Assembly: GCA_937872325.1 (NCBI GenBank)
Contig: CALMSN010000183.1
Coordinates: 1 to 59,596, forward strand
Origin: an uncultured Xanthobacter sp.
GTDB lineage: Bacteria; Pseudomonadota; Alphaproteobacteria; Rhizobiales; Xanthobacteraceae
Direction of reading: 5' to 3'
Length of the DNA stretch: 59,596 nucleotides
The position numbers were made by a program, and so were the translations under genes. Of the stretch, positions 3,267 through 32,430 are shown in pieces. Under the pieces are notes generated by a model. That model was not told where the DNA came from, ran no database searches, and worked only from the letters and a program-made list of their open reading frames with translations. Position 1 is the first letter of the stretch. Every line of letters begins with the position of its first letter.

Positions 3267-3458
3267 GATGCATCTCCTCTCGATTAGAGTTGAGAAAACA
3301 GAATTTGATTGATCTAGAAATATGAATTCATCACGCGGGCCTAGAGAATAATATCTGGCCTTAGCGCACACATCGGATAGCCGCCAATAAAACAGAAGCT
3401 ACCGTGTAACGCAGTAAGCCGCATTTGCGGCACGAATTGCATACTAACGACATAGCGT

Positions 3459-4328
3459 TCACGCCACGTCTGGCGAACGCGAATCCCTTAAGATGACATT
3501 GGCCAGCACCGACCAGTCGCGTTCGCCCCAACCGGCGTCGATAGCCTCGGCCATTTGTTCGCGCACCGCGTCCAGCATCGGCAGTTTGTGTCCGGCCGCC
3601 TCCGCTGCGGCAGTCGCGAGCCGGAGGTCCTTCAGGCCCAGCCGGGCCTTGAAGCCGGGCTCATACCTGCATTGAGCGATGTTGGAGCTGTATGTCTGGT
3701 AGGAACGCCCGCCGAACAGCGTGTTCAGGATCAGATCGAAGAACGCGGCGCGGGGAAGGCCGTTCGATTCGGTTATGGCGACGGCTTCGGCCATGGCCTC
3801 GATCGCCATGGTGATCATCATGTTTGCGGCGAGCTTTGCGGCATTGGCGCGCTTGGGCTGCTCGCCCATGTCCCACACTTTCTTTCCCAGGACATCGAGC
3901 AGCGGGCGGACGCGATCGACGGCGTCGGGCTTGCCAGCGGCGAGAATGTTCAGCTCGGCTCTCGCCGCAACGTCCGGCCGGCCCATCACGGGAGCTGCGA
4001 CATAGCCGATGCCCGCCTTCTCGTGCAGCCCGGTCAGTTCCTCAGCAAAGGCGACGGAGATTGTCGCCGTCATCACATGCACCAGTTCCGCCCGGGCCTT
4101 TGACAGCGCCCCGCTGTCGAGAAGGACCGCCCGGATCGCGGGGTCGTCGGACAGCATGGTGAAGGTGGCCTCGCCCAGAAGCGCGTCGGCCGGCTGGGGC
4201 ACCATCGTGATGCCGTCAATGCCGGGATTGCCTGAGCGATTCCATGCGCTGACGGAATGGCCGGCAGTGATGAGATTGCGCGCCATGGCAGTGCCCATGG
4301 CGCCGAGGCCGATAAAACCAACCTTCAT
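3459..4328 (-). CDS. NAD(P)-dependent beta-hydroxyacid dehydrogenase family protein
   Basis: The 289-residue product starts MKVGFIGLGAMGTAMARNL, the Rossmann dinucleotide-binding loop of 3-hydroxyisobutyrate/6-phosphogluconate-type dehydrogenases. The all-alpha C-terminal domain includes GEQPKRANAAKLAANMM, the region of the conserved lysine (family motif GxGxxxKxxxN, here altered at the glycines). Length is normal. AAGGAG lies a few bases upstream of the ATG. The substrate cannot be named: the family includes 3-hydroxyisobutyrate, tartronate semialdehyde, glyoxylate and imine reductases. The gene stands alone, with no operon partner on its strand. Confidence 0.82.
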   Translation of the reverse strand: MKVGFIGLGAMGTAMARNLITAGHSVSAWNRSGNPGIDGITMVPQPADALLGEATFTMLSDDPAIRAVLLDSGALSKARAELVHVMTATISVAFAEELTGLHEKAGIGYVAAPVMGRPDVAARAELNILAAGKPDAVDRVRPLLDVLGKKVWDMGEQPKRANAAKLAANMMITMAIEAMAEAVAITESNGLPRAAFFDLILNTLFGGRSYQTYSSNIAQCRYEPGFKARLGLKDLRLATAAAEAAGHKLPMLDAVREQMAEAIDAGWGERDWSVLANVILRDSRSPDVA

Positions 4329-18038: not shown

Positions 18039-23223
<5,185 letters not shown>

Positions 23224-23407: not shown

Positions 23408-23698
23408 TCAGAACAGCAAGGGGCCGTCAAGATCCAGGACAGGCTTGGCGCCTACATGTTCGACCCGTCGTCTGCCTTCCGCACCGAGCTTGTAGAAACG
23501 CAGACTGTCGGTCGTGGCATCGATTTCAGCGATTAACCGAGCCCTAAGAGCAACCCATTGCGAAGGGTCGACTTCGCATTCAAATACGGAGTTCTGCACG
23601 CGTTGACCATAGTCGAGGCATGCCCGCGCCACGCGGCGAAGCCGCCGGCGACCTGCTGCGGTCTCGGTGGAGACGTCATAGGCAACCAGCATCAGCAT
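23408..23698 (-). CDS. cas2: CRISPR-associated endoribonuclease-fold protein Cas2
   Basis: The 96-residue product starts MLMLVAYDVSTETAAGRRRL, the first strand of the Cas2 ferredoxin fold with the conserved Asp (D8). It ends with the I-C typical C-terminal strand. With Cas1 it forms the integrase that inserts spacers beside the leader. The start is 3 bp after the cas1 stop. Length is normal for the I-C form. Confidence 0.95.
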   Translation of the reverse strand: MLMLVAYDVSTETAAGRRRLRRVARACLDYGQRVQNSVFECEVDPSQWVALRARLIAEIDATTDSLRFYKLGAEGRRRVEHVGAKPVLDLDGPLLF

Positions 23699-23701
23699 GC
23701 A

Positions 23702-24742
23702 TCATTTCCAGATGAAACCGGGATAGCCATCAAGGTCACCGCGCAGATGGCGGGCAAGAAGCTGCGCCTGCACATACGCCACAAGACCCAGCGGCATCGC
23801 CTCGTCCAGGAAGGGATGGGTCAGTTCATCCCGCTTGCGTTCCTGCCATGCCACCAGTACCCGCTTACGCGCCTCGTCGGTCAGGCGCACGCCGCCGGCA
23901 TCCTCAACCAGAAAGTCCCCCGGCTCGAGTTGCCGACGGTTGATGAGACTCAACATCAGCCGATCCGCAAGTACGGGTCGCAATTCCTCCATCAGGTCCA
24001 AAGCAAGGCTGGCGCGGCCGGGCCGATCAGCATGGAGGAAGCCCACTTGGGGATCGAGCCCATGGGCTTCCAGAGCAGACCGGCAATCATGGCCGAGCAA
24101 GGCATAAAGGAACGACAGCAAGGCGTTGACCCGGTCGAGCGGCGGCCGGCGCGAGCGGCCGCCGAAGACGAAGGCGGGATCGTCGTTCCGCAGGAGATAA
24201 TTGAAGCAGCCGAAATAGATCTGCGCCGCCTCACCCTCCAGCCCGCGCAACAGGTCCACCTCCGATGCGACGAGTGTGCGACGGGCGACATCCGTGAGCC
24301 GCCGTTCGGCCGCTTCCAGCGCTTCCCGGCCGCCCGCCGGCACAGTGCCGCCATGATCGCGCAGAGCGCGGCGGATGACGGTGCGCTGATTAGCGGCCTT
24401 TGCCGCCACGATGCCACGTACAATCGGGACGGCGCGCGCAGGGGTGTCCGCTATACGGAATTGGGTCCGCCGCAGCAGAACGTTGCCGGTGCGCGGTCCC
24501 TCGACGCGGGCCAGGAAGCGGCCATTCGGATCAAGGTGCGACACCGTGACCCCAGCCTCAGCGCAGGCCGCGAGCAGAGCCGGCGACGCACCCGGTCGGC
24601 CGAAACTGACCACACCGTCCAGCATGTGAAGGGGCGCGCGACCGCGCTCGGCGCCATCCACCTCGACCACGAGATTGGCGCCGTCCTTTCTCAGCCAGGA
24701 GTCCTCGCTCGTGACGTAGATGGTGTTGAGCATACGCCGCAT
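23702..24742 (-). CDS. cas1: CRISPR-associated integrase Cas1, type I-C
   Basis: The 346-residue product contains the Cas1 metal site: Glu in LEGEAAQIYFGCFNYLL, His in GFLHADRPGRASLALDLMEE, and the following acidic residues of that helix. It cuts and joins protospacer DNA at the first repeat. ATG 24742 is used because GAGG stands 5 bp before it. A GTG one codon earlier and an ATG three codons later are alternatives. The gene starts 7 bp after the cas4 stop. Confidence 0.96.
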   Translation of the reverse strand: MRRMLNTIYVTSEDSWLRKDGANLVVEVDGAERGRAPLHMLDGVVSFGRPGASPALLAACAEAGVTVSHLDPNGRFLARVEGPRTGNVLLRRTQFRIADTPARAVPIVRGIVAAKAANQRTVIRRALRDHGGTVPAGGREALEAAERRLTDVARRTLVASEVDLLRGLEGEAAQIYFGCFNYLLRNDDPAFVFGGRSRRPPLDRVNALLSFLYALLGHDCRSALEAHGLDPQVGFLHADRPGRASLALDLMEELRPVLADRLMLSLINRRQLEPGDFLVEDAGGVRLTDEARKRVLVAWQERKRDELTHPFLDEAMPLGLVAYVQAQLLARHLRGDLDGYPGFIWK

Positions 24743-24749
24743 CACAGCC

Positions 24750-25403
24750 TCACTTCTCGAGCCTTACGGCCAGCCATCGCGCGACCGAGGGGGGCTTTTC
24801 CAGCCGGGACGGCTGGCACAACGCCTCTAGCGAGCAGCGCCGGCACCCCGGCATGTGGACCGGAGCCGGCGTGACCTCAGACACGATCATGGCACCGGCC
24901 GCTGCAGCCGTGCGGCCTGTCAGCGCCCGCAGGTCGTCGTCGAACGCCACCCTCTGGCGGCGACGGGTCTCGCCATAGAAAAGCGCGCCCTCGGGCACCG
25001 TCACCCCAAATGCCTCTTCGAGGCAGATCGCCTGGGCGCAGAGTTGGACCTCATCCGCCCGGTGCGCCTTCGGCTTGCCCCGCTTGTATTCTACGGGAAA
25101 TGGACGGACGTCCTTGCCAAGCTGGTTCCCGTGGAACTCCACCACATCGGCCTTGCCCGTCACCCTGAGCGCCACGGAGCGCAGGGCCACGCTCCGGGCT
25201 ATGCGCACACCTGGGCGGGTTTCGGATCGCCCGGAATCAGCCTGCTCGTGCAGCAACCGTCCTTCCGCCGTGGCGGCATCCTCGGCCCAGAGCTGCTCCA
25301 AATGGATGAGCGCGCACTGGCGCGGGCAGAACAGATAATGCTGCAGCGCCGACAGCGGGATCAGCGCATCCTCCGTCTCGCTGTCGATAATGGCGGCGGC
25401 CAT
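24750..25403 (-). CDS. cas4: CRISPR-associated exonuclease Cas4
   Basis: A 217-residue RecB-like nuclease. Iron-sulfur ligands are expected from C26 (FCPRQCALIHLEQLW) and the C-terminal CRRCSLEALC. The nuclease core is visible as GKADVVEFHG and VEYKRGKPK, followed by QLCAQAICLEEAFG (QxxxY region). In type I-C systems Cas4 trims prespacers and selects the TTC PAM with Cas1-Cas2. Twelve bases separate it from cas7. Confidence 0.94.
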   Translation of the reverse strand: MAAAIIDSETEDALIPLSALQHYLFCPRQCALIHLEQLWAEDAATAEGRLLHEQADSGRSETRPGVRIARSVALRSVALRVTGKADVVEFHGNQLGKDVRPFPVEYKRGKPKAHRADEVQLCAQAICLEEAFGVTVPEGALFYGETRRRQRVAFDDDLRALTGRTAAAAGAMIVSEVTPAPVHMPGCRRCSLEALCQPSRLEKPPSVARWLAVRLEK

Positions 25404-25414
25404 GGATGCCGCTT

Positions 25415-26356
25415 CTACGGCTCGAGGATCTCAATGCCGTCCGGCAGGGCACCTCGCTCGATGGTGATGGCGTAATCCTCGAAGCTGCGTGGCGGGGGCG
25501 CGTTATCGAGGCGCTCGTCACCGGGCTTATATTTCTCGCCCCGGAACATCCGCCAGGTCTCGACGCGGTCGAACAATCCGCTTGCCTGTGCATTGCCGAG
25601 GGCGGAGGCGTGACGGAAGACGATGAGCTTGCGCGTCGCCATCTCGCCACGCGCGGCGGAGCGGTCGTGCTCGAACATGTTCGCGAGCGCCTCGAACAGA
25701 AGGGCGAGATCGGCATCGGAAAAGCCCGTGCCCTTGACGGGGTGGGAAGCAAGGGGAGCCGAAACATAGCCGTGGGCGCGATAGAGCCCGTAGGGCACGA
25801 TGTGCTTGCGGCCCATGGTGCGCCCGCCCTTGGCATCCGCGTCGGCCTCCGTCGTCGCGGCAAGTCGGGTAATGGAGATTTCAAGCGGCAGGATCGGCTC
25901 CACCGAACGAGCGAAGTTGATCTGCACCGGACCGCGCACTTGGCCGGCATTGACACCGGTGGTCATCACCGCGCCAAAGCTGCGGATGTCCCAGAAGTTC
26001 GCGCACATCCAGCGGGTCAGCTCGCGGGCCTTGGCGTCGTCCTTCGGACCCTTCTTGAGTTCATCCGCCTTGGTTACTTCGGGCATCACCGCAGCCCAGG
26101 CGCGCTTGTGCTCGTTATTGAGGGTCGCACCGTCGCGCATGTAGATCTCGTGGCCGGGGGCATCGGGCCGCGCCAGCGCCACGTAATTGCGGATCTTGCG
26201 CTTCAGCGCGACATCGGAGACCAGCCCCTGGTTGGTCTCCGGATCGAGGCGCGGCATGTTGCCGGCATCGGGGTCTCCGTTCGGATTCCCGTTGATGACG
26301 TCGAAGAAGAGTACGAATTCGTGCCGCCGCGAGAGGCCGGTCGATTCACTCGTCAT
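25415..26356 (-). CDS. cas7: Cascade backbone protein Cas7 (Csd2), type I-C
   Basis: The 313-residue product starts MTSESTGLSRRHEFVLFFDV and contains INGNPNGDPDAGNMPRLDPE, the strongly conserved N-terminal stretch of Csd2. Several copies coat the crRNA spacer. ATG 26356 is preferred; the frame opens 63 bases earlier inside cas8c without family sequence. It overlaps the cas8c stop by 11 bp, so the two are coupled. Confidence 0.95.
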   Translation of the reverse strand: MTSESTGLSRRHEFVLFFDVINGNPNGDPDAGNMPRLDPETNQGLVSDVALKRKIRNYVALARPDAPGHEIYMRDGATLNNEHKRAWAAVMPEVTKADELKKGPKDDAKARELTRWMCANFWDIRSFGAVMTTGVNAGQVRGPVQINFARSVEPILPLEISITRLAATTEADADAKGGRTMGRKHIVPYGLYRAHGYVSAPLASHPVKGTGFSDADLALLFEALANMFEHDRSAARGEMATRKLIVFRHASALGNAQASGLFDRVETWRMFRGEKYKPGDERLDNAPPPRSFEDYAITIERGALPDGIEILEP

Positions 26357-28163
26357 TGGTGGTGTCCTCTGCATCCGTAACGGCGAGCTCAGCCTCGGCC
26401 TCGCGATCGGCGAACTCACCCCTGCGCTGGTGGTAGTAGCCGAGCACGAAGCGGCCCTGTGCCTCGAGCGGAAGCGAGCGCGGCAGGTAGCCGCCGAGAT
26501 GATTGGCGATCTCCTCGACCTCGCGTTCCAGCCAGGCCCCTTTGCCGCCCTTGCGCAGCTTGCCCATATGGTTTTGCGCGCCGCGCATCAGCAGCGGGAA
26601 GACACTCGCCGGCGTGGCCGAGGCCGCACCGAAATAACGGTCGCGAATGGTGGCGTTGATCTTGCCGAGCGCCATGCGCTGCGCCGTCTCGTAGGCGGCG
26701 AACAGGCGGCCGAGTTGATAAGCCGGGTGGGGATTGTCCCTTTCAAGACTCACCGGTGGGTCCTCCTTGGCGAGGTCGAAATTGTCGGATGTCTGCGGGC
26801 CAGCGCTTCGCAGCCGGGCGTCCCGTCTGAGGACAGCCTTGATCACCGCGGCGTGCCAGCCGGTTGAAGGATCGTCACCGGCGCGCACCCGCATGATGGC
26901 TGCCGCAAGCAGAGAACGCGGGTAACGCGTGCCTTCCAACACGGCGCGCGTCACCTCGCCCGCGAGCTGGGGCGGGATGTTCTCATATTTCTCCAGCATC
27001 GCCGTGGTCTTCAACAGCAGCCAGGAGATGGAAGGAGGTCGCTCGCCCCACGGCCGCGGCATGACGGAAAGGTCGCGATAATGCTCTGCCAGGCGCTGTA
27101 CGAAGGCGCCGAAATCGTCGGACAGCCAGTAGCGCACCGACAGCCGCGCGGCATTCGGCGCAAGACCGAGCACATGGAAGCGGGTGCCTGGGCTGAGGCG
27201 GGGATCGAGCATCTCGACCGGGTGCCCCTGCATGACACTTTCGAGCTGCTCGCGGACCTTCCTCGCCTCGTCCGGATCGTCCGGCGGTTCGGCGAAGGCA
27301 GCGAACACGTCTTCCGCCGCCCGCGCTTGCGCCTCGTCGACCGTCTGCGATGTGTCTGCCCAGAACACCACCGTCGCGTCGCCGATGCCGCGCGCAAGGC
27401 GGTTACGGCTGGTGCGCTCCAACATACCGTTCAGTGCCGCACCATAGCGAAAGGCGGCCTCCTGCGAGGTCGGTCCATTCTCGCCCTGCTCCTTGCCATA
27501 GGAAGCGAAGGCATCGAGATTGAACGAGACCAGCGCCGCCCCCGAGGACTGCGCTCCACTGACACCTTTGATGGTGGGATGAAGCCGCTGGGCAATGGAT
27601 AGCCTCCCGGTGACAAGGCAGGGCACAAGTCTGCCTTCGTCTCCGGTCCTTGAGGTCAGCAGCGCATGGGCCGCCGCGCGCTGATGGATGAAGCCGTTTT
27701 CACCCTTGAGGCGAAAGACGATGTTGGCGTCCAGCATGTCTGGATTAAAAGGCGGTGCATCAAAGCCTTCCGGCGCCCAGCCTTCGAGAAAGCGATGCAA
27801 GGCGAGAAGGCCCGGATCGCCAGCGCCTGCGAGCAATTCGATGTGTGTGGTCTTGAAGGCCTCGTGCTCCAGCGCCGTGCGCTTGCCGTCTCCCGCCGTG
27901 CGGCCGAGCACATAGGCGCTTTTATCCCAGAACAGGTTGGGCAGGATGCCGGCGGTTCGTTTCACCGCAGCGGGCACGGAGAGCAATTGCGGAATGAGGC
28001 GCTTGCCGCTCGCCGCCCGAAGGTCGATGACCCCGACCGGCATGCCATCCGGCGCAATCTCGATGGCAAAGCTGATCTTCTCACGAGAGAAGCCCGGCGG
28101 CTCTGCCTCCCCCCGCTCGGCCATGCGGTCGTAATAGCCGTCGAGCGACCGCAGGATGGTCAT
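26346..28163 (-). CDS. cas8c: Cascade large subunit Cas8c (Csd1)
   Basis: The 605-residue product is Csd1, the PAM-recognising large subunit of type I-C Cascade. It begins MTILRSLDGYYDRMAERGEA and contains LFWDKSAYVLG and VSFNLDAFASYGKEQGENGP, both typical of the family. An internal start that makes the small subunit Cas11c is known in I-C systems, and a C-terminal methionine of this frame could serve, but I cannot pick it. The ATG overlaps the cas5c stop (ATGA). Confidence 0.95.
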   Translation of the reverse strand: MTILRSLDGYYDRMAERGEAEPPGFSREKISFAIEIAPDGMPVGVIDLRAASGKRLIPQLLSVPAAVKRTAGILPNLFWDKSAYVLGRTAGDGKRTALEHEAFKTTHIELLAGAGDPGLLALHRFLEGWAPEGFDAPPFNPDMLDANIVFRLKGENGFIHQRAAAHALLTSRTGDEGRLVPCLVTGRLSIAQRLHPTIKGVSGAQSSGAALVSFNLDAFASYGKEQGENGPTSQEAAFRYGAALNGMLERTSRNRLARGIGDATVVFWADTSQTVDEAQARAAEDVFAAFAEPPDDPDEARKVREQLESVMQGHPVEMLDPRLSPGTRFHVLGLAPNAARLSVRYWLSDDFGAFVQRLAEHYRDLSVMPRPWGERPPSISWLLLKTTAMLEKYENIPPQLAGEVTRAVLEGTRYPRSLLAAAIMRVRAGDDPSTGWHAAVIKAVLRRDARLRSAGPQTSDNFDLAKEDPPVSLERDNPHPAYQLGRLFAAYETAQRMALGKINATIRDRYFGAASATPASVFPLLMRGAQNHMGKLRKGGKGAWLEREVEEIANHLGGYLPRSLPLEAQGRFVLGYYHQRRGEFADREAEAELAVTDAEDTTNDE

Positions 28164-28837
28164 GACACGGTGCCCTCGGCGAGGCAGCGTTTCACGTCGA
28201 GCACGCCGCCGATGAGCTGCGCATGAAAGAAGCGCGAGGTCGCATTATCGGCGAAGTCGATGTCGTGGAGCATCCAGCCCAAATCGCGCTCGCGTTGATC
28301 CGGTGGCAGCGTGCTCTCCGGCAGCGGCGCACCGGGTTCGACCAGGGCAAAGTCGGCCACGCACTCGCGGGTGCCGAGGCAGGGGCGATGAAAGCACTGC
28401 CCCGCCGCCGCGCGACGGTTGAACATGCTCAGATGCTTGGCTTCGCTGTCCTCCGCCCCGGCCTTTGCAGTTAGCTCGAAATGCGCCTCGATGACGTAGG
28501 CGACGTCGTTCAGGAACAATGTGGCGCGCTGCTGCCGGTTGTCCTCGACCACGAGGCCGATGCCCGCCGTGGTACGGGCGCGCATGGCGGTCCCGGCGGT
28601 AGCGGCGCTGGCCTTGGCGCCGACCTCGTTTCGCCGGAAGGACTGGAAGCGGATGGGCCTCAGCACATGGATGCTGTCGATGATCCAGCGGATCGCCGGC
28701 TTCCAATGGATCGCCTCGAGAATGCCGCGCGCGGCGGAGGGGGTCATCACGTCATAAGAGACGCGCTCCACCTTCATCTCCGGGCGCGTGAAGCAGGCCC
28801 GTTCGCCCCAGACGTTAAGCCGAACACCATAGGACAT
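28160..28837 (-). CDS. cas5c: Cas5c, crRNA-processing Cascade subunit
   Basis: The 225-residue product starts MSYGVRLNVWGERACFTRPE and has YDVMTPSAARGILEAIHW, the RAMP-fold signature of type I-C Cas5. In I-C it replaces Cas6: it cuts pre-crRNA at the base of the repeat stem and stays on the 5' handle. AAGGGG precedes the ATG. The gap of about 336 bp to cas3 upstream is unusual for an I-C operon and holds the pseudo-crRNA element described here, so cas5c may have its own promoter. Confidence 0.95.
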   Translation of the reverse strand: MSYGVRLNVWGERACFTRPEMKVERVSYDVMTPSAARGILEAIHWKPAIRWIIDSIHVLRPIRFQSFRRNEVGAKASAATAGTAMRARTTAGIGLVVEDNRQQRATLFLNDVAYVIEAHFELTAKAGAEDSEAKHLSMFNRRAAAGQCFHRPCLGTRECVADFALVEPGAPLPESTLPPDQRERDLGWMLHDIDFADNATSRFFHAQLIGGVLDVKRCLAEGTVS

Positions 28838-28916
28838 ACGAATCGCCCCTTGCAGATCAACCTATGCGAGAGCACGAGAGCCGAACAATCAAGTGTCCGA
28901 CGGCATGAAATTGGAT

Positions 28917-28978
28917 CTGGGGGTCTAGTGGCATTACAACGCGCCACAATGTTTCAATCCACGCCCGGTCAGCGTGAC
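28917..28978 (-). ncRNA. crRNA-like RNA with degenerate repeat (CreR/CreA candidate)
   Basis: On the minus strand 28978 to 28951 resembles the array repeat. The last 16 nt, GGGCGTGGATTGAAAC, match the repeat 3' end with one change. The 5' half has diverged but still folds: CACGC pairs with GCGTG around a 7-nt loop, keeping the stem at whose base Cas5c cuts and the GATTGAAAC handle. The next 17 nt, ATTGTGGCGCGTTGTAA (28950-28934), match 15 of 17 positions of a TTC-flanked site at 29138-29122. It is a lone half-repeat inside the cas operon, not part of an array. The 3' end is unknown; the end given assumes a normal 34-nt spacer. Function is inferred from CreR/CreA precedents. Confidence 0.75.
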
Positions 28979-29055
28979 GGAACTGGTATTGGCTCGATGT
29001 GAATCTCAAGCGAACCGTCGGGATGACTCAGAATCGTGATGCGCTGTCGACGCAT
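28969..29055 (-). CDS. 28-codon mini-ORF between the pseudo-crRNA and its target
   Basis: ATG 29055 follows CGGAGG with a 5-base gap, one of the best ribosome binding sites in the window. The product is MRRQRITILSHPDGSLEIHI then EPIPVPSR. Its TGA falls inside the hairpin of the degenerate repeat. The codons after the start are CGU CGA, two Arg codons, the second rare in GC-rich genomes. The CreT toxin of Haloarcula hispanica likewise has tandem rare Arg codons right after its start and acts as RNA by trapping a tRNA. The peptide has no family signature. It may be a CreT-like toxin, a leader peptide, or only translation coupled to processing. Confidence 0.5.
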   Translation of the reverse strand: MRRQRITILSHPDGSLEIHIEPIPVPSR

Positions 29056-29121
29056 GAGAGCCTCCGTTACGTGACCACAAGGCCACTAGGGCGGGGCAAT
29101 ATCAAGCATTGAATACGGCGT

Positions 29122-29141
29122 TTACAACGCACGACAATGAA
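29122..29141 (-). promoter_or_regulatory. Predicted Cascade target site upstream of the mini-ORF
   Basis: On the minus strand TTC (29141-29139, the type I-C PAM) is followed by ATTGTCGTGCGTTGTAA (29138-29122). This matches the pseudo-spacer at 15 of 17 positions, with mismatches only at 6 and 8; position 6 is the flipped-out base in Cascade. Similarity ends after 17 nt, so Cascade could bind and repress but probably not trigger Cas3 cutting. TTGTCG (29137-29132), with TATTCA 16 bp downstream, is a possible promoter that this binding would block. Confidence 0.65.
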
Positions 29142-29173
29142 CTTTGATTTATAAATTGCTGGAATACACACCC

Positions 29174-31498
29174 CTAGAAGACATTCTGGGCCGTATCGCG
29201 ATAGCTCAGATTCTCCAGGTCGACCCCGGTCTCCGGTCGATAATGCGACAGGTCGGCAAACTTCAGCATCGCATCCCCGAGCGCCCGATGGACCGGCGTC
29301 AGCACGCCGCGCTTCAGCCATTCGTCACGCTCCTTCTTCGGGATCGGCACCACATATTGCTGCAACCGCCGCAGGTCCGCGGTGCGTGGTCGCTCTTGCA
29401 CGGCGATGCGCGTCAAAAGCGTCTCTGCGTCGTCATCCTCCGGACCGGCCACCCACGGCACGACGACCGGCTCCATGACGTCCTCGATCATGCGAAAGGC
29501 CTCGGCGATCGACCGGAACGGAAACTCCTGGGTGGCTGTCGTCTCTTCGACAGCCCGCAGGATGCCGGGGTAGGCCCCCACCCTGGCTGTGTCGAACACC
29601 TTCGTGGCGTCGCCCTTTCGCCAGTAAAGCTCCGAGAAATACCCCTTCACCGCTTGAAGATCGAGCGGGTCCGCCTGCTTGTCCAGCACGGGCTGGGCCG
29701 CCTCCCAGCGCAACTTGATATCGTGAGGCAGGTGGCCCTCCGCCGGCTCGAAGACCACCACACGCCCCAATCCGGGCCGGCCGTCTTCATCCTTTAACTC
29801 GCCCTCCCGGTTGGCCCTTCCGGCGGCCTGGGCGATGGCATCCACGCCGGTCGCGGCACGCCATACCTCGGGAAAGCTGATGTCCACGCCCGCCTCGATC
29901 AGCGAGGTCGCGACGAGCCGGACGGGCGCACCGGCTTTCAGCTTGTTCCTCAAGTCGGCCAACACCATGCGACGATGGCGGGCGCACATCTGGGTGGAAA
30001 GATGCACGGCCCCGGGCAGATCGCCAATGGCGTCGAACAGCATCCGCGCGTGTCGGCGCGTGTTGACGATGCACAGCATCTGCGGTTGCTCGACGAAGCG
30101 CGCGGCAATGATGCCGTCAGTGACGGGCTCCTTCATCCGTTCCACCGCCACACGCTTCAGCTTCACGTAGAGCCCGGCGGGGTCCGGTGCCAGTTCCCGC
30201 TCGGGTGGCAGGTCGAGGCCCATGGGCACGTCTCTGGCACCGCGCAGCGCCCCGTCGATCTTGCGCAGCGCCGGCTGGGTCGCCGTGCACAGCACCACGC
30301 TGGTCTGGTAGTTCAGCGCCAATTGTTCGATGGCCGCTAAGCTCGGCAGAAGGAGAGGCAGCGGCAAGGTCTGTACCTCGTCCAGCACGACCACGCTGCC
30401 GACGATATTGTGAAGTTTACGGCAACGCGATGTGCGATTGGCAAACAGGCTCTCGAAGAACTGCACCGCGGTGGTAACGATTATAGGCACATCCCAGTTC
30501 TCGGCCGCCCGTTGTAACTTGGTCAGGACGTCCGGAGCCTCGTCGTCGGCCACGCGCTGGCTGCGCGCTTTCTCCCAGTCGAAACTCGCGTGATGCTCCA
30601 GAATATCGCCGCTGGAACCAAGGGCCTGCTGGAACACATCCGCCGTCTGCTCGACGATGGATGTGTAGGGAATGACATAAATGACCCGCCGAAGACCATG
30701 GCGCACGGCATGTTCCAGCGCGAAGGACAATGAGGCGAGGGTCTTCCCGCCGCCGGTCGGCACGGTGAGGCTGAAAAGTCCGGGCGAAAGGGCCGCCTTG
30801 TCCAGCGCGTGGTCGAGTATGCTGGAGCGCAGTGTATTGAGGGGGGTGGGATCAACGCCAGCGCGCTTGGCTGCCATGTAGGTGCGCAGGCGATCACGCA
30901 GAATGGATAGGTCGGCATGCCCGCCGCGCTCCACTTCCTGGCCCGCCGCCTCGGCATAGAAGCGCTCGGTTGCGATGAAATCGGCATCGACAAGACAGGA
31001 GAACAGCATCCGGATGAGGAAACTCCGCGCGAAACCCTTCGGGCCTCCTGCCGGTAGAGGCACCCGCGCAAGCTCCGCAGGCTCCGGCAGGGGCCCAGTA
31101 TGGTCCTGCCAACCGAACGGAACCAGCCGCTTGGCGGCTTCCATGCGGCGCACCAGATCCTCGCCATCGGCCAAGCCCGAATGGTGAGCGGCGATGATGG
31201 CAAAAAGGATCTTGCCGAAATGTGGGCCATACCGGTCCAGAGCGACACGCGCCCCCGCGGAGGAATGGTCGCCGCCGGAGGTCCGCCGGCCGGCGATATA
31301 GTCCTGGAATTCCGGTGACAGTTTGCCGATATCGTGAAGCCTTCCGGCGAGACGCAGGACCTCCGTCCAGCGCAGAGGCTCAGCGAACTCGGCCGCAAGT
31401 GCGCCAACGGCCTCGTCGTGATCCCACAGGTGCTCCCATCGGTCCACGGGAACGCCGGGCAAGGAATGAGCGTAAACATTGGCCATGCGTTTCGGCAT
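29174..31498 (-). CDS. cas3: CRISPR-associated nuclease-helicase Cas3, type I-C
   Basis: The 774-residue product has an N-terminal HD nuclease domain (WEHLWDHDEAVG, GRLHDIGKLSPEFQDY, AAHHSGL). A superfamily 2 helicase follows: Walker A GGGKTLASLSFALEHA, DExx box VVLDEVQTLP, and TSLIEAGVDISFPEVWRAAT of the second RecA domain. It degrades DNA marked by Cascade. ATG 31498 is used; ATG 31486 is possible. It is the first gene of the operon. A 10-bp inverted repeat lies within 40 bp upstream, and an insertion sequence begins about 100 bp upstream. Confidence 0.96.
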   Translation of the reverse strand: MPKRMANVYAHSLPGVPVDRWEHLWDHDEAVGALAAEFAEPLRWTEVLRLAGRLHDIGKLSPEFQDYIAGRRTSGGDHSSAGARVALDRYGPHFGKILFAIIAAHHSGLADGEDLVRRMEAAKRLVPFGWQDHTGPLPEPAELARVPLPAGGPKGFARSFLIRMLFSCLVDADFIATERFYAEAAGQEVERGGHADLSILRDRLRTYMAAKRAGVDPTPLNTLRSSILDHALDKAALSPGLFSLTVPTGGGKTLASLSFALEHAVRHGLRRVIYVIPYTSIVEQTADVFQQALGSSGDILEHHASFDWEKARSQRVADDEAPDVLTKLQRAAENWDVPIIVTTAVQFFESLFANRTSRCRKLHNIVGSVVVLDEVQTLPLPLLLPSLAAIEQLALNYQTSVVLCTATQPALRKIDGALRGARDVPMGLDLPPERELAPDPAGLYVKLKRVAVERMKEPVTDGIIAARFVEQPQMLCIVNTRRHARMLFDAIGDLPGAVHLSTQMCARHRRMVLADLRNKLKAGAPVRLVATSLIEAGVDISFPEVWRAATGVDAIAQAAGRANREGELKDEDGRPGLGRVVVFEPAEGHLPHDIKLRWEAAQPVLDKQADPLDLQAVKGYFSELYWRKGDATKVFDTARVGAYPGILRAVEETTATQEFPFRSIAEAFRMIEDVMEPVVVPWVAGPEDDDAETLLTRIAVQERPRTADLRRLQQYVVPIPKKERDEWLKRGVLTPVHRALGDAMLKFADLSHYRPETGVDLENLSYRDTAQNVF

Positions 31499-31599: not shown

Positions 31600-32430
31600 G
31601 CTCAGGACTCATTGATCAGAGCCAGAAGATGACGGACGCTGCGATGCATATGGCAGAGAAGAAGGTATGGGCGCAGCGGTCGTATCGGGTGGCGATGCGG
31701 CGCCAGTCCTTGAGTTTGGCGAACAGGTTCTCGACCTTGTGCCGCTGCCTGTAGAGGGCCTTGTCGTAGGCGAAGGGCCGCTTTCGGCTCCTGGATGAAG
31801 GAATGCAGGGGGTGATGCCCTTGGTGGCCAGGGCATTTCGGAGCCCGGCGCTGTCATAACCCCGGTCAGCTATCAGGGTTCGGGCCGGCGGCAGGGCGTC
31901 GAGGACAAGGCGGGCGCCCTTGTGGTCGCTCATCTGGCCTTCCGACAACAGCATGATGATCGGCCGGCCCTTATCGTCGCAGACGGTGTGGAGCTTGGAG
32001 TTCAGGCCTCCTCTGGTGCGCCCGATACGGCGGGGAACAGCCCCTTTTTTAAGAGGCTCGCCGCCGTGCGGTGGGCTTTGAGATGGGTGGCATCGATCAT
32101 GATGCACTCGGGTTTCGGCCCTTCGCCGGCGAGGGCGGCGAAGATGCGGTTGAACACGCCGAGCCGGCTCCAGCGGATGAAGCGGTTGTACAGCGTCTTG
32201 TGCGGGCCGTAGCCCTTGGGTGCGTCCTTCCATTGCAGGCCGTTGCGGATGACGTAGACGATCCCGCTCACCACCCGTCGGTCATCGACCCGCGGCACCC
32301 CATGGGCCAAGGGAAAGAACGGCGAAATCCGCGCCAGCTGACGCGCGCTCAACAGGAACAAATCACCCATCGCAGCCTCCGCAACGGAGACTGTGAATCA
32401 CAACTCAACGCAAATTAATAGGTCCTGAGC
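31600..32430 (-). mobile_element. IS5-family (IS427-type) insertion sequence, 831 bp
   Basis: The ends are imperfect inverted repeats: GCTCAGGACTCATTGAT at 31600 and, on the other strand from 32430, GCTCAGGACCTATTAAT, with 14 of 17 matching. Both ends are flanked by CTAG (31596-31599 and 32431-32434), the target usually duplicated by the IS427 group. A single transposase is encoded in two overlapping frames. The element looks complete and so probably recent. It lies between cas3 and the purine cluster and may influence cas3 transcription. Confidence 0.88.
31616..32370 (-). CDS. IS5-family transposase made by -1 frameshifting
   Basis: The first frame (32370-32002) starts MGDLFLLSARQLARISPFFP and carries the N-terminal domain and the first catalytic Asp in CIMIDATHLKAH. 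The second frame (to 31616) has LIADRGYDSAGLRNAL with the second Asp, and RQRHKVENLFAKLKDWRRIA with the Glu of the DDE triad. The frames join at A6-G4 (minus strand 32050-32041), a slippery run where the ribosome can step back one base from reading LLKKG to KKGAV. This is the usual expression mode of the IS427 group. The fused product is about 250 residues. Confidence 0.88.

Follow-up and report, generated by a model that had tools for sequence, protein, structure and literature searches.

The 336-bp gap that separates cas3 from cas5c in the type I-C locus of an uncultured Xanthobacter sp. probably holds a CreTA-like addiction module, to judge from its sequence: Cascade, loaded with a crRNA-like guide from the gap, would silence a mini-ORF that likely acts as a toxin gene, and loss or inhibition of Cascade would release the predicted toxin. 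We analysed this locus within the window, by which we mean the whole stretch of 59,596 nucleotides (contig CALMSN010000183.1). The locus lies on the minus strand, with cas3 (29174..31498) upstream of the gap and cas5c (28160..28837) downstream of it, followed by cas8c, cas7, cas4, cas1 and cas2 (together 23408..28163) and an array of 76 exact 32-nt repeats (18039..23223). Just upstream of cas3 there is a fragment of an IS5-family transposase (31616-32233), the best match of which spans positions 89-258 of 258.

The gap contains a pseudo-repeat (minus strand, 28951..28978) that consists of a 5-bp stem (CACGC/GCGTG) and a crRNA-like handle; the 16 nucleotides at 28966-28951, GGGCGTGGATTGAAAC, agree at 15 positions with the end of the repeat in the array. 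A 14-nt handle pattern, searched with at most one mismatch in the 4.0-Mb genome, gave 85 matches, of which 77 exact and two one-mismatch copies belong to the array and five one-mismatch copies lie elsewhere, the remaining match being the pseudo-repeat, the only exact copy outside the array. The pseudo-spacer that follows (28934..28950, minus strand) matches a protospacer-like site at 29122..29138 on the same strand in 15 of 17 positions. Mismatches fall at positions 6 and 8, so that nine of the ten seed positions (1-5 and 7-11) are paired, and by eye the pairing ends after 17 nt. The site adjoins a TTC at 29139..29141, read directly from the sequence, and TTC is reported as a type I-C PAM (PMC8406640). 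The original prediction had described both this half-repeat and its 17-nt match to a TTC-flanked site, and its coordinates, mismatch positions and counts proved right.

This match is difficult to obtain by chance. A pattern made of TTC plus the site, with any base allowed at positions 6 and 13 and up to three mismatches, matched only the site and the pseudo-spacer, and the reversed control pattern gave one match. When the upstream DNA was shuffled 500 times by mononucleotides, no TTC-flanked match exceeded 10 of 15 positions, compared with the 14 of 15 observed. An Rfam search of positions 28700-29300 with E values up to 1 matched nothing, nor did a search of plasmids with the gap DNA.

We then compared cas5c loci from other genomes. 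Relatives of cas5c were collected from overlapping draws of genomes, in which matches were found in 24/391 genomes of the family, 25/249 of the order, 14/385 of the class, 23/398 of the phylum and 27/369 of another class; further loci came from six plasmids and from named genome contigs, of which the 80 best among 587 relatives were kept, so that the set is not a random one. Together with the window this gave 194 loci, or 188 distinct ones once six duplicates had been dropped. In one of these, on a plasmid of Rhizobium sp. Q54 (L194, 3404-8446), cas3 and cas8c of type I-C are each annotated as two separate genes. A handle was scored where at least 13 of 16 positions agreed with a consensus that allowed some alternatives, within 300 bp of cas5c; by this measure, which more diverged handles would escape, 33 of the 188 loci carry a handle and 155 do not. 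For the 17 nt after each handle, both strands of 900 bp were then searched for the best match, whatever its flank, with positions 6 and 12 excluded.

In 24 of the 33 handle loci (the window and 23 others) the guide matches a nearby site in at least 12 of 15 positions. Although no PAM was required, 23 of the 24 sites are flanked by TTC and the remaining one, in Inquilinus limosus (L028), by TTT. When the 33 guides were compared with the 187 other loci as a control, 127 of 6171 pairs reached 12 of 15, only two of them with TTC. Mismatches in the 24 modules are concentrated at position 12 (18 modules) and position 6 (16), followed by position 17 (six) and positions 9 and 15 (five each), with at most four at any other; position 8 is mismatched in four, including the window, and positions 1-5 are fully paired in 23. 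The 10-nt seeds are distinct in 23 of the 24 modules and differ at a median of 8 of 10 positions, although the modules are partly non-independent, since five pairs, including the window (L001) and L028, have seeds that differ at no more than three of 10 nt. Persistence of pairing while the guides differ between loci is what a working guide-site pair predicts. In the comparison of the window with L028, guide and site have both changed at positions 2, 5 and 15. Conservation of the repeat and target pairing in relatives, compensatory changes included, had been proposed as a check on the original prediction, and its outcome was positive. The prediction that a crRNA-like RNA brings Cascade to an adjacent PAM-flanked site through short pairing is likewise well supported by the frequency of pairing and of TTC, and it is very likely, as far as sequence can tell, that Cascade is guided to and bound at this site.

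The distribution of the module is uneven. The closest relatives of the window (L002-L006, with 85-89% identity in cas5c) have a shorter gap, and the same handle search found no module in them; three of these five are identical to Xanthobacter and Ancylobacter loci. A locus of the same genus with 80% identity (L007) has a module with another guide, which suggests that the module comes and goes. Nine of the 33 handle loci fell below 12 of 15. Four of them (L110, L107, L104 and L090), with a TTC and 11 of 15 positions matched, joined the 24 in a survey of 28 modules, and L057, L021, L075, L030 and L185 were left out.

Between site and guide, the window contains a mini-ORF of 28 codons plus stop (87 nt, 28969..29055, minus strand), which we predict to be a creT-like toxin gene. 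It is preceded by a ribosome-binding site, GGAGG, at 29061..29065 (five of six positions of AGGAGG, spacing 5). Its start lies 67 nt past the site, which is itself 301-284 bp upstream of cas5c, and its stop codon falls inside the loop of the pseudo-repeat hairpin. We counted as mini-ORFs those with an ATG, at least 22 codons, a ribosome-binding site and a start between site and handle. Such an ORF is present in 21 of the 28 modules, whereas 7.1 are expected when the intervals are shuffled by dinucleotides; some of the 21 are questionable, namely L174 (22 codons), L106 (partly masked), L090 (distant site) and L103, where the reading from -243 to -63 relative to cas5c appears broken in comparison with L124 and L187. 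The seven modules without a qualifying ORF are L149, L143, L094, L109, L108, L110 and L104. Eight of the 21 ORFs have a stop codon whose end is no more than 4 nt from the start of the handle.

Conservation of the encoded proteins is confined to some lineages. Four loci that belong to two phyla according to their record titles (L054, L070, L085 and L089) have ORFs for related proteins, 50-54 residues long, that include a hydrophobic stretch. A membrane-type protein of 33 residues is common to L124 and L187, which represent two families within the window's order. In neither group does the similarity extend beyond the ORF frame. A profile of the four-member family found one match in each of the four source genomes and none in six other genomes with modules. 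Applied to 79 further genomes (49 with cas5c and 30 without), it recovered one module locus (E value 1e-22); a second match, at 0.009, covers part of a 342-residue frame, comes from a genome that lacks cas5c and is likely due to chance. The 54-residue protein of L089 matched one entry in a protein database, itself. The window mini-protein shows weak similarity to the mini-ORF of L007 (p about 0.01 among 171 pairs) and no significant similarity to those of L028 and L009; the score between L009 and L028 includes the translated pseudo-repeat. Relative to seven genes of the window, the mini-ORF uses rare codons early (CGT CGA) and late (CCA ATA CCA GTT). These may simply mirror the base composition of the gap; sequestration of tRNAs, as in haloarchaeal CreT, is a possible alternative.

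In L039 and L040, a hicA toxin gene lies in the cas3-cas5c gap, downstream of the guide, between it and cas5c (3344-3583 and 3379-3591, respectively), with matches to the HicA family (PF07927) at E values of 1.9e-14 and 1.1e-14; the ORF on the opposite strand after hicA had no Pfam match. The guides of both loci match their sites at 13 of 15 positions, with TTT and TTC flanks, respectively. By eye, the same region of L041 is like that of L039 and L040. The module counts do not include these three loci, which fall outside the 300-bp limit.

Signals for transcription were next compared. Strict scans of the window gap found no consensus promoter and no terminator, including between the guide and cas5c; by eye, TTGATA at 29100..29105 (minus strand) is a weak candidate for the -35 box of the mini-ORF and guide. 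Of the 28 modules, 13 have TTGAC in the 60 nt that follow the site, with 1.4 expected, and 17 have a stem of at least 7 bp after the guide, with 0.7 expected; such a stem also occurs in five of the 155 handle-less loci. The same scan found neither TTGAC past the site nor a 3' stem after the guide in the window. Where present, the stems may stop transcription ahead of cas5c. In L054, L143 and L145 the 3' stem, which lies within about 60 nt downstream of the pseudo-spacer, resembles a further degenerate repeat (GTCGCGCCC...GGGCGCGTGGATT), like that of creA genes with two repeats.

These features can be combined into a model for the window. A single transcript would bear both the mini-ORF and the guide, from a promoter that the site would overlap or adjoin. 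Processing of the guide is likely a job for Cas5c, since Cas5 is reported to be the processing enzyme of type I-C systems (PMC10651486), and Cas5c would thus release from the mini-ORF transcript a candidate RNA with a ATTGAAAC-type handle starting near 28960. With pairing limited to 17 nt, Cascade would bind the site without cutting by Cas3, and repression of the mini-ORF would end once Cascade is lost or inhibited. The weakest step is the presumed harmfulness of the mini-ORF, whether as protein or as RNA. We favour a CreTA-like unit on account of the placement of the mini-ORF, the protein conservation in some lineages, the HicA in others and the published counterparts in types I-E and I-F. 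Against it stand the lack of a consensus promoter, TTGAC and 3' stem in the window, the weak conservation of the mini-protein, the seven modules without ORF, the absence of the module from the closest relatives and the guide mismatch at position 8, given that in H. hubeiense any single change at positions 1-5 or 7-11 is reported to have abolished CreA function (PMC8501985), although four of the 24 modules have this mismatch in common.

CreTA has been described in types I-B, I-F and I-E (PMC8501985, PMC9458426, PMC10097628, PMC12055562, PMC12737573), and the reported I-F and I-E modules repress a toxic mini-ORF in the equivalent gap (PMC10097628, PMC12055562). The I-E module of Citrobacter rodentium resembles the window in its position between cas3 and the first Cascade gene, its crRNA-like guide with a PAM-flanked partial match and its short ORF, which has 96 bp and lies behind a promoter; toxicity there is reported to require translation, and loss of Cascade to be costly only when the gap is present (PMC12055562). 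Its guide, however, is on the opposite strand and upstream of the ORF, whereas in the type I-C window it is on the same strand and downstream, with the ORF stop inside the pseudo-repeat. The I-F module of Acinetobacter likewise has a mini-ORF with a ribosome-binding site and a mini-CRISPR guide with a PAM-flanked match, in the cas3-csy1 gap, and is missing from some close relatives (PMC10097628). It differs in having two repeats and an ORF divergent from the guide, where the window has a same-strand layout and one repeat was found; its mini-ORF is described as toxic in the form of RNA, independent of a protein product (PMC10097628).

In haloarchaeal I-B systems the promoter under repression by the guide drives a mini-ORF gene, the toxins being RNAs that sequester rare tRNAs, and the TTC-flanked site, the pairing at positions 1-5 and 7-11 and the tolerance at 6 and 12 recall the modules described here (PMC8501985, PMC9458426). 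These are archaeal systems with Cas6, whereas the window has a Cas5c system with pairing up to 17 nt and a mismatch at position 8. In CrePA, too, a toxin is repressed by Cascade and a crRNA-like guide, and the hicA loci L039 and L040 recall this arrangement (PMC12737573). CreP typically has a KilA-N domain (PMC12737573), for which the window ORF appears too short: the longest same-strand ORF with a ribosome-binding site between site and guide in the 336-bp gap was the one of 28 residues.

The original prediction had Cascade, loaded with the guide RNA, repress a promoter for the mini-ORF, the RNA itself and perhaps cas5c-cas2, as a sensor of Cascade or crRNA supply. On a CreR reading, guide and Cascade would repress the promoter of their own cas5c-cas2 genes, and the mini-ORF would be a bystander or encode a leader peptide. 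Guidance of Cascade to the adjacent site is the part of the original prediction that is supported; the cas operon as the repressed unit is called into question by the mini-ORF that intervenes in 21 of 28 modules, and we consider the CreR reading as a whole rather unlikely for the window. CreR RNAs are crRNA-like, with a partial match near a cas promoter and the kind of Cascade-dependent repression predicted here (PMC13131331, PMC12737573), and they are known from types I-B, I-E and V-A (PMC13131331). The position of the site upstream of cas5c agrees with this, and since no terminator was found between guide and cas5c, read-through and regulation of the cas genes are possible. Some of the related modules without ORF fit CreR better: only 36-80 bp separate site and handle in L149 and L108-L110, which leaves no room for a long ORF, and these are likely CreR-like type I-C modules. 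CreR is, however, described as uncoupled from a toxin gene (PMC12737573), whereas the window has a mini-ORF, which may be a toxin gene, between site and guide, and both the enrichment of mini-ORFs and the conservation of their proteins in related modules speak against it. So do the stems after the guide in many modules, if they end the transcript before cas5c, although the window has none. The module-less L002, of the same genus, has a short gap in which the stretch just before cas5c is, by eye, similar to that of the window, so that cas5c may have a promoter of its own. Under a CreR reading, cas expression would track free Cascade and increase whenever Cascade is taken up by anti-CRISPRs or by abundant crRNAs; the CreTA-like reading likewise predicts that anti-CRISPRs lift the repression. 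Both kinds may exist in type I-C, and one module could do both.

Two explanations without a functional guide-site pair appear very improbable. The pseudo-repeat is degenerate and its segment folds no better than shuffles (z -0.93), as would suit the remnant of a repeat and spacer from an old array with an accidental match to the site, but this is contradicted by the pairing statistics with a TTC that was not required, by the compensatory changes relative to L028 and by the 500 shuffles, none of which gave a match by chance. Solitary repeat units with an anti-CRISPR effect are known for type I-C (RacrIC1, PMC10651486), and the half-repeat could by analogy yield a Racr-like RNA that titrates Cas proteins and has no DNA target. 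Such a decoy is equally hard to credit, given that the half-repeat lies inside a cas locus rather than on a mobile element and that pairing with a PAM-flanked site has been kept in most of the handle loci.

A 2023 study by Shmakov is said to describe mini-arrays, crRNA-like and present in many type I systems, of which some target cas promoters or toxin-antitoxin genes. In the literature searched, which consisted mostly of titles and abstracts, we recognised no CreTA- or CreR-like module of type I-C, and Liu 2023 and Shmakov 2023 may hold cases. A 2025 review poses as questions the breadth of CreTA-like mechanisms in other CRISPR types and the existence of other coupled toxins (PMC12737573). 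The present work provides a concrete type I-C set of 24 modules with a handle and a matched PAM-flanked site, or 28 with the weaker four, of which 21 have a candidate mini-ORF. On this basis we tentatively suggest a widespread type I-C addiction family, in which the 3' end of a toxin mini-gene would contain the guide, Cascade would silence the promoter common to both, and Cas5c, in excising the guide, would also sever the toxin mRNA at its stop codon. The slot would hold varied toxins (membrane mini-proteins, basic mini-proteins and HicA), and in at least two phyla type I-C systems would make it costly to lose them or to inhibit them with anti-CRISPRs. If true, this would explain cas3-cas5c gaps without an annotated gene, removal of single type I-C cas genes may harm the cell, and a common subtype would carry a built-in alarm against anti-CRISPRs.
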